Assembly (NCBI RefSeq): GCF_016789985.1
Contig: NZ_JAEUOL010000290.1
Span: 1-34,186, forward strand
Origin: Accumulibacter sp.
GTDB taxonomy: Bacteria > Pseudomonadota > Gammaproteobacteria > Burkholderiales > Rhodocyclaceae
Length of the DNA stretch: 34,186 bases
Reading direction: 5' to 3'
Part shown: in pieces, positions 12,376 through 32,134 of the stretch
Layout of the letters: each line of letters opens with the position of its first letter
Numbering within the stretch: the stretch's first letter is position 1
Notes under the pieces: model-generated
What the model saw: the letters and a program-made list of their open reading frames with translations, nothing else
What the model was told of the DNA's origin: nothing
Database searches by the model: none
Program-made: the position numbers and the translations under genes

Positions 12376-12451
<76 letters not shown>

Positions 12452-12476: not shown

Positions 12477-12552
12477 GTCCCCATCGTCTAGAGGCCCAGG
12501 ACACTACCCTTTCACGGTAGGTACCGGGGTTCGAATCCCCGTGGGGACGCCA
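12477..12552 (+). tRNA. tRNA-Glu (anticodon TTC)
   Basis: The 76-base cloverleaf is complete with encoded CCA. The acceptor arms GTCCCCA/TGGGGAC pair perfectly. The anticodon stem CTACC/GGTAG has loop CTTTCAC with anticodon TTC. The T arm is CGGGG-TTCGAAT-CCCCG. It lies 25 bases after tRNA-Ala and is presumably cotranscribed with it. It is also the tRNA that supplies glutamate for haem synthesis by the C5 route (compare hemB downstream). Confidence 0.96.
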
Positions 12553-26491: not shown

Positions 26492-28580
<2,089 letters not shown>

Positions 28581-28638
28581 CTATCATCTGTTCGTGATAA
28601 ACAAAAGGGATGAAAAACCGGAAATTGGCGGGGAACTC

Positions 28639-28667
28639 TTGCCCGAGGCGGTGTTCTGATATGTAGA
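28639..28667 (+). promoter_or_regulatory. Possible promoter of the candidate small RNA
   Basis: TTGCCC (28639-28644) and TGTAGA (28662-28667) are 17 bases apart on the plus strand. An overlapping TATGTA (28660-28665) is an alternative -10. This would start RNA near 28674, giving a transcript of about 90 bases ending at the terminator. The -10 is weak. Confidence 0.3.
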
Positions 28668-28673
28668 TGGCTT

Positions 28674-28763
28674 TGCCGTCTCCCGCTTCACCTCCCTGAG
28701 CGGGTGCCTTATTCCTTAAGGCATGTGTTGCCCCCGGCTCCCCCTTTGCCGGGGGTTTTTTTT
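28674..28763 (+). ncRNA. Candidate triple-hairpin regulatory small RNA beside engB
   Basis: On the plus strand, opposite to both flanking genes, three perfect hairpins follow in series. The first is CCCGCT/AGCGGG with loop TCACCTCCCTG (28682-28704). The second is TGCCTT/AAGGCA with loop ATTCCTT (28705-28723). The third is the terminator CCCCCGGC/GCCGGGGG followed by eight T's (28731-28763). No plus-strand protein gene precedes it, so the terminator must end a non-coding RNA. The loops are C/U-rich and complementary to Shine-Dalgarno sequences (CACCTCC), a hallmark of small RNAs that block translation. The U-tail suits Hfq. Its place convergent to engB resembles Spot 42 in E. coli and ErsA in Pseudomonas, by position only. 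The 5' end is a guess. Confidence 0.6.
28731..28763 (+). terminator. Intrinsic terminator (plus strand)
   Basis: An 8-bp perfect GC stem (28731-28738 with 28748-28755), a 9-base loop and eight consecutive T's make a textbook intrinsic terminator. It points to the plus strand only, as no T-run follows on the minus strand. Its T-run overlaps the engB stop codon. It belongs to the candidate small RNA. Confidence 0.9.
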
Positions 28764-29472
28764 AGCCTTTGCCAAGGTTGCCGGTATTTCTTGCGCTCCA
28801 GCCCATGGCACCGCGCTTCTTCGGGCGGGCGATCTTTTCGCTCGGCGGGTTTAGCGGCGGCGCCGTCTTCTCTGGTACTGTCAATCCGAGCCAGCCGGCG
28901 AGAACAGCCTCCGCCTGTGCGACCCCCGACTTTTTCAGGCTTGAGAATAGCTGCCAGCTGAAGCTGCCGCCAATGGCTCTGCATGCCTGCTCGACCTCAC
29001 GCATGGCGAGTATCTGTTGCTGCCGGGTCAGCTTGTCGGCCTTCGACAACAGAACGTGTATCGGTTTGCCGGTAGGGGCGAACCAGCCCAGCATCTGCAA
29101 GTCGAGTTCGGTCAGGGGATGGCGACTGTCCATAATCAGCACCAGACCGGTAAGCGCCTCGCGGTAGCGCAGATAGGGTGCGAGCAGACCCTCCCATTGC
29201 GAGCGAATCTCTTCTGGGGCCTTGGCAAAGCCGTAGCCAGGGAGGTCGACAAAGTATTTCCCGGGTTCGACGCGAAAGTAGTTCAGGTGCTGCGTTCGTC
29301 CCGGCGTCTTGGACACGAAGGCCAGGCGGATGTGGTTGGCCAGAGTGTTGATCGCGGAAGATTTGCCCGAATTGGAGCGTCCAGCAAAAGCGATTTCGGC
29401 CAGCGAGTCGCCCGGCAGATCCCGCAGGTGGACCACCGTCGTCTGGAAAACCACCTTCTGAAAAAGGGGCAT
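28762..29472 (-). CDS. engB: Ribosome biogenesis GTP-binding protein EngB/YsxC
   Basis: EngB (YihA/YsxC) is an essential GTPase that helps assemble the 50S subunit. The N-terminal strand [14 protein letters not shown] leads to G1 [14 protein letters not shown]2 lies in [14 protein letters not shown]3 is [10 protein letters not shown] and G4 is LSKADK. The protein (236 residues) is longer than the usual about 200-210 because of a basic, proline-rich C-terminal tail (about 200-236, [17 protein letters not shown]). It is divergent from the cytochrome gene, and its stop overlaps the T-run of the plus-strand terminator. Confidence 0.95.
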
Positions 29473-31931: not shown

Positions 31932-32030
31932 TGGCGGGTCTCCCCGCATCGCAGGGTGGTGAACCTGGTCAGGTCCGGAAGGAAGCAGCCACAGCCATCT
32001 GATGTGAGTGCCGGGGGTAAGGCTCGCCAC
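31932..32030 (+). ncRNA. ffs: 4.5S signal recognition particle RNA
   Basis: The SRP RNA pairs with Ffh to target nascent membrane proteins. The universally conserved domain IV hairpin is intact: GGTGAACCTGGTCAGGTCCG, then GGAAGGAAGCAGCC, with the GGAA tetraloop and the asymmetric internal loop. The ends TGGCG (31932-31936) and CGCCA (32025-32029) close a long rod, giving the short bacterial form of about 100 bases. It lies just before dnaX, a common bacterial arrangement. Exact ends are estimated from pairing. Confidence 0.95.
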
Positions 32031-32134
32031 CTTCCTTCATCGCCGTCTCGCCCATCGTGACGAGGGGACCCTTGGTCCCGGGAGTGTCCCCGGCCCGACA
32101 GTGATCAAACAGCTCGGGGAGTCCTGACCCCATC

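Follow-up and report, generated by a model that had tools for sequence, protein, structure and literature searches.

A member of the anti-hemB small RNA family in Accumulibacter with a sigma-E-type promoter motif and a probable relative in ErsA of Pseudomonas

The 34,186-nt stretch of Accumulibacter DNA analysed here (the window) carries on its plus strand, at positions 28674-28763, a member of the known Rfam family RF02837, anti-hemB. Its three hairpins are kept by compensatory changes among betaproteobacterial relatives, its place beside engB is conserved, and a promoter motif of the ECF (AlgU/RpoE) type lies upstream. We consider it quite probable that the whole is best explained as an RpoE-type-driven, Hfq-assisted repressor that would act in trans through an anti-Shine-Dalgarno loop, and that would be orthologous to a small RNA that many other Gammaproteobacteria encode in the polA-engB interval. 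As far as the literature was searched (few subscription papers were covered), three points are new: a promoter motif of the sigma-E type, a 5' hairpin, and a connection with ErsA and the polA-engB small RNAs. The predicted sigma factor and the link to ErsA together suggest a testable role for anti-hemB in envelope stress.

Identity and structure of the RNA

A preliminary description of the window, made from its letters, had presented the element as an undescribed small RNA. An Rfam search returned RF02837 at 70.0 bits (Table 1), and the family is therefore already catalogued; within its own genome (93.7% complete) the window copy was the sole RF02837 match reported. The structural part of the description held. 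By direct reading, the plus strand forms three hairpins, the last of them a terminator with eight T's (stem GCCCCCGGC/GCCGGGGGT, 28730-28756; T's, 28756-28763), and the stretch folds at -39.9 kcal/mol with a z-score of -5.41, none of 200 dinucleotide shuffles doing as well. The ORF coordinates place hemB and engB both on the minus strand, as had been stated, the RNA lying between a divergent hemB and a convergent engB whose stop codon shares two bases with the T tract. Elsewhere in the window there are a small SRP RNA (31933-32031, +) and two tRNA genes (12376-12448 and 12477-12549, both +).

Compensatory changes in the three stems, which the preliminary description had proposed as a check, were found when 61 of the 71 fetched betaproteobacterial sequences were aligned; the ten omitted were mainly near-duplicates, plus the divergent L200, L202 and L208. 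Changes on both sides were seen at 14 of 20 pairs, and 95.7% of cells were paired. On each of five measures 0 of 500 shuffles equalled the alignment, and six slid structures all scored lower.

The first hairpin had been said to expose CACCTCC, which indeed lies inside it at 28689-28695; the CCUCCC core is fully unpaired, but the CA ahead of it is mainly paired (unpaired probability 0.16 and 0.31). This core is strongly conserved: each of its six columns holds one base in at least 59 of the 61 relatives, and three columns do so in 61 of 61. The loop reproduces CCUCC, the core of the anti-Shine-Dalgarno sequence of the ribosome itself. The claim that all three loops are C/U-rich is true of the window copy, whose loop 2 (TTCCT) is all pyrimidine, but across the family loop 2 is not C-rich: CTCC or CCCC occurs in loop 1 of 61/61 relatives, in loop 3 of 52/61 and in loop 2 of just 8/61.

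The element also starts further upstream than had been described, with a fourth hairpin at its 5' end. A 5' helix score of at least 6 was reached by 142 of 190 betaproteobacterial copies versus 13 of 190 shuffled ones, and by 30 of 190 when real sequence 40 nt upstream was scored. With this hairpin the RNA would be about 99 nt long, with a fold of -48.1 kcal/mol, and its predicted length is close to that of ncS04, the anti-hemB homologue of Burkholderia cenocepacia, which is reported as 105 nt with a RACE-confirmed 3' end and is among the Northern panels of PMC5688073. The Rfam match, the covariation across 61 relatives and a mapped Burkholderia transcript give good support to the claim of a small RNA on the plus strand that exposes an anti-Shine-Dalgarno loop.

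Table 1. Features of the anti-hemB locus, in window positions
Feature	Positions	Strand	Basis or detail
hemB, divergent neighbour	27561-28571	-	ORF
-35 element of ECF (AlgU/RpoE-type) promoter motif, GGGAACTC	28631-28638	+	GAACT-N17/18-TCnnA enrichment; AlgU consensus
-10 element, TCTGA	28655-28659	+	16 bases after the -35 element
Whole predicted small RNA, about 99 nt, four hairpins	28665-28763	+	start inferred from promoter spacing and 5' hairpin
5' hairpin, AGATGGC-TTT-GCCGTCT	28665-28681	+	upstream of the RF02837 model match
RF02837 (anti-hemB) match	28679-28763	+	70.0 bits, cut-off 49.5, E 1.3e-14, model 1-81 of 81
Hairpin 1, presenting the anti-Shine-Dalgarno loop	28682-28704	+	CCCGCT/AGCGGG; 94.8% of cells paired, 61 relatives
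CCUCCC, unpaired core of loop 1	28691-28696	+	unpaired probability 1.0
Hairpin 2	28705-28723	+	TGCCTTA/TAAGGCA; 5/6 pairs with changes on both sides
Intrinsic terminator, C-rich loop and eight T's	28730-28763	+	7/8 pairs with changes on both sides
engB, convergent neighbour	28762-29472	-	ORF and synteny

The RNA is widespread in the window's order, where 190 of 300 sampled genomes scored over the cut-off and 232 gave a match at E<=0.001; the corresponding counts were 115 and 136 among 150 genomes of its family, the window's own genome being included in both samples. The class sampled is, we assume from GTDB usage, the Gammaproteobacteria, with the betas contained in the window's order. Its 274 genomes yielded 124 matches at E<=0.001 and 14 over the cut-off, these 14 including the window's own genome and one other of its order. 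Among 14 control genomes, 3 also gave matches below the cut-off; weak RF02837 matches are therefore partly noise. Two further sets were used below: a named set of 120 loci retrieved with the exact hairpin 1 motif, and a gamma set comprising every class genome outside the order (100 in total) that had an RF02837 match at E<=4.5e-5. Among the named loci, HemB/EngB/cytochrome identity was highest for L076, Candidatus Accumulibacter adjunctus (81.4% mean).

Promoter motif

The window motif GGGAACTC-N16-TCTGA agrees with the AlgU consensus, quoted in PMC10651043 as GAACTT-N16/17-TCtgA. Within the 90 nt upstream of the copy, GAACT-N17/18-TCnnA was found in 43 of 51 cases in the family, 11 of 20 in the order, 39 of 119 in the named set and 64 of 100 in the gamma set; the background in 90-nt strand windows was 5/6506 and 14/11542. 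The promoter and 5' hairpin counts in the named set cover 119 of its 120 loci, one being short of upstream sequence, with near relatives all kept. Because the background windows are mostly coding, a shuffled-upstream control was added: with a spacer of 14-19, the motif occurred in 95 of 190 betaproteobacterial copies versus 1.15 on average, and 3 at most, over 20 shuffles. Its position is the same in beta and gamma copies.

A clear RpoE is encoded in the window's own genome (325.4 bits, cut-off 236.15), besides four weaker ECF-like matches. We infer from the sequence that the acting sigma factor is an ECF factor of the RpoE/AlgU type. The motif was looked for upstream of this genome's rpoE and none was found, giving no sign of rpoE autoregulation. 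Genome-wide, a strict GGAACTT form of the motif occurred once on the forward and not at all on the reverse strand, versus 9 and 6 times (15) in a reversed control, and the sole occurrence lies elsewhere than at the small RNA gene; the counts therefore do not demonstrate a wider RpoE regulon sharing this motif. Many Burkholderia copies are without the consensus motif.

Some of these observations would suit a different account, in which a trans-acting anti-hemB RNA is transcribed from a housekeeping promoter and the GAACT/TCTGA elements have another role, or serve an ECF factor that has no part in envelope stress. Several Burkholderia-type copies carry TATATGATA or TATATCATA in the motif's stead, and both the motif-free rpoE and the four additional ECF-like matches could be read in the same way. 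In Burkholderia, ncS04 showed no significant change across the seven conditions tabulated in PMC5688073, where induction is described as largely absent after short stress, SDS included. Against this stand the strong enrichment of the motif, its correct spacing and a position that stays constant across beta copies, gamma copies and a copy of ErsA, and we regard the alternative account as unlikely.

Proposed action and gene neighbourhood

In the RpoE-driven reading that we prefer, RNA polymerase with an RpoE/AlgU-type ECF sigma factor would start at about 28665 and transcription would end at 28763, and the product, an RNA of about 99 nt with four hairpins, would bind Hfq via its U tail. Aided by the C-rich terminator loop, the CCUCCC loop of hairpin 1 would pair with purine-rich ribosome-binding sites, in trans and on several mRNAs made elsewhere, so as to block their translation. 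The RNA would form one branch of the response to envelope stress and would be the betaproteobacterial orthologue of the polA-engB small RNA of many other Gammaproteobacteria, of which ErsA would probably be a diverged member. We infer Hfq binding in Accumulibacter, repression and targeting on this basis. A search for perfect-complement targets gave three genomic sites before an ATG and none in the control; the ORFs at these sites, 63, 122 and 110 aa long, could not be recognised as genes.

The neighbourhood of the RNA is well conserved in the betas, with a divergent hemB and a convergent engB at 65 of 71 copies. Both genes flank 101 of the 120 named loci, hemB alone 7 and engB alone 5, the remaining 7 having neither as defined; at one named locus (L050) the exact hairpin 1 motif lies between polA and engB. 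Another (L073) is on a metagenome contig labelled Klebsiella pneumoniae, a label that is probably wrong since the contig shows the betaproteobacterial hemB-sRNA-engB arrangement.

The expected orientation in the gamma set (polA upstream and/or engB convergent) was found in 74 of 100 genomes: 38 with a same-strand polA upstream and a convergent engB downstream, 19 with engB as the only neighbour and 17 with polA only. Six more had polA and/or engB in another orientation and six a cytochrome c gene alone, while polA, engB and the cytochrome gene were all absent from 14 of the fetched stretches, some of them cut by contig ends. An anti-hemB-like RNA thus lies downstream of polA, on the strand of polA, in 55 of the 100 genomes. 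The hairpin sequence CCTCCCTGAGCGG occurs exactly in 37 of the 100 gamma genomes' copies and in 63 of 71 beta copies. R2, a model built from 29 gamma copies only, scored the window copy at 65.1 bits; those copies had first been found via RF02837, and the underlying alignment (A2) omits 9 of the 38 gamma loci that have both neighbours. Models R1 and R2 were applied to selected sources (30 and 24) rather than to all loci. Taken together, there is a strong case for homology between anti-hemB and the gamma polA-engB RNA.

Eight gamma copies with no polA or engB nearby keep the GAACT...TCnnA motif (L189, where a cytochrome gene is the only neighbour, L191, L259, L261, L262, L280, L281 and L289), which suggests either that they have moved but are genuine or that the genes were missed at contig ends. 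Tandem copies, two to four per locus, were observed at L177, L178, L179, L156, L159 and L226. There polA is a neighbour in L177 and L178 and engB in L177 and L179; no polA, engB or hemB was found near L156, L159 and L226, and L156 and L159 have GAAACT in place of the motif.

The name anti-hemB would imply antisense control, in cis, of a transcript reading through from engB into hemB, and the RNA does lie opposite the engB-hemB interval, with a terminator that overlaps the engB stop codon. Such a role is improbable: in the gammas polA, on the strand of the small RNA, commonly replaces hemB; engB is 3.7 kb away in named locus L107; in the 14 gamma stretches mentioned above, some of them cut by contig ends, no polA, engB or cytochrome gene was found; and the loop is conserved above the stems, contrary to what antisense pairing needs. 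That the element is a mere terminator with chance hairpins is scarcely credible, since a strong terminator and the weak matching of such models by CU-rich loops with terminators (DsrA, 22.7 bits with R2) have to be set against covariation in all three helices, the promoter motif and a mapped homologous transcript, ncS04, which already contradicts it.

Comparison with known small RNAs

The closest known RNA is anti-hemB (Burkholderia RNA 7)/ncS04 itself, to which the window copy corresponds in its full-length, over-cut-off match and its hemB/engB place; the RF02837 relatives collected here share its three hairpins and CCUCCC loop. It differs in carrying the ECF-type promoter motif that many Burkholderia copies are without, and its 5' hairpin and promoter fall outside the Rfam model. 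Hfq binding of ncS04 is cited by the authors of PMC5688073, and anti-hemB is tabled as a trans-acting RNA in PMC3521395. The available text of these two papers gives no function for it, and a word search of their main text found no mention of ErsA, polA or RpoE. The name anti-hemB occurs in PMC6515984 as well.

The preliminary description had also seen a likeness to the CcsR 'cuckoo' RNAs of alphaproteobacteria. This kinship fails: ar14 (RF02344), which we take as the representative of the cuckoo type, scored 18.5 bits on a cut-off of 58.8, and ar7, which like ar14 has C-rich loops, 15.7 bits on a cut-off of 60. RF02278, taken together with S17 of Bordetella and bdhR1, resembles the window RNA in its CU-rich unpaired stretches and in the pairing with ribosome-binding sites that is predicted for its members in PMC5688073, and S17 directly represses one target (PMC11722255). 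It differs in its score (26.4 bits, cut-off 50), in having two hairpins and in the other neighbours of S17. The window's own genome has one over-cut-off match to RF02278 (Betaproteobacteria toxic sRNA), at 67.7 bits (L032, G000:C259:4424-4488).

The location beside engB had been compared with those of Spot 42 and ErsA, and this proved a good lead, in that ErsA looks related; Spot 42 (RF00021) agrees in position only, lying between polA and engB (yihA) and convergent to engB. It is not among the matches to the window at E up to 1, and the ECF motif is absent from it. R2 matched E. coli at about 15.8-15.9 bits exactly at the spf position; with filters off, DsrA scored 22.7 bits and Spot 42 came second of 13 E. 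coli stretches, and as DsrA outscores it we rejected the match at spf as evidence. RF02837 gives a sub-cut-off match in E. coli, and since the 8-kb polA-yihA stretch held none at E up to 0.5, this match is not at Spot 42. Homology with Spot 42 is unsupported.

R2 scores call for similar caution beyond the class. In 14 genomes of the same phylum outside it, R2 matches had no polA, engB or hemB in the fetched flanks (<=1.5 kb), so that R2 scores of 26-36 bits alone are no proof of membership. One of these matches overlaps a tRNA-like sequence by eye.

The sX13 RNA of Xanthomonas (RF02232) lies downstream of polA and has three C-rich loops, and according to PMC3771888 the mRNAs that it represses carry G-rich motifs close to their start codons. 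Control in reporters depended on the C-rich loops as well as on the G-rich motif of the mRNA, and compensating mutations failed to restore control (PMC3771888). The same paper reports ar7 at polA and had already remarked on the shared polA locus and C-rich loops of sX13, Spot 42 and ar7. The RNA differs from the window copy in its score (17.6 bits, cut-off 50) and in acting independently of Hfq (PMC3771888), and the ECF motif is absent from two sX13 copies. Of ten sub-cut-off matches to the sX13 model, five are near polA or engB and five have neither, and among the latter R2 matched L311 and L313 and left three unmatched. R2 ranked sX13 second in its two genomes, the higher-scoring locus in each (40.6 vs 35.2 and 34.8 vs 34.0 bits) being a second terminator-ended, RNA-like element with loops that are CU-rich by eye (L319, L325). 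As these loci outscore it, the sX13 link rests on locus and overlap, and homology is possible.

ErsA (Pseudomonas, RF01719, Pseudomon-1) is located in the polA-engB gap and linked to Hfq (PMC8575079), and PMC7565897 describes its expression as depending strictly on sigma22. The window gave no match to RF01719 at E up to 1, and ErsA differs in having polA, not hemB, upstream and, in the copy examined, in being without hairpin 1 with CCUCCCUGAGCGGG. On the engB side the two loci are alike in orientation, hemB standing in polA's place in the window; both RNAs are convergent to engB with a C-rich terminator loop. An over-cut-off ErsA copy (genome G601) carries GAACTT-N17-TCATA at the same place, and a sigma22-type motif of the ErsA kind is present in the window as a motif, which is not to say as a function. 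In the class sample the ErsA model gave nine sub-cut-off matches, all nine adjoining polA and/or engB and six overlapping anti-hemB matches on the same strand. R2 ranked ErsA first in its genome; such scores being insufficient, the link rests on locus, overlap and promoter. As ErsA shares the engB side and orientation and the promoter motif, and as its model matches the same intermediate RNAs, it looks related: it is likely a diverged member of the group, and anti-hemB probably its betaproteobacterial relative.

One genome (G610) has four tandem copies in the polA-engB gap, of which anti-hemB matches all four, ErsA one and sX13 another. It is an evenly balanced question, on our reading, whether a single ancestral RpoE-controlled anti-Shine-Dalgarno RNA stood beside engB before the beta/gamma split and gave rise to anti-hemB, the gamma polA-engB RNA, ErsA and sX13. 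If it did, RNAs now filed as separate families would make up a single lineage of envelope-stress RNAs, to which Spot 42 might also belong, although its inclusion is unsupported.
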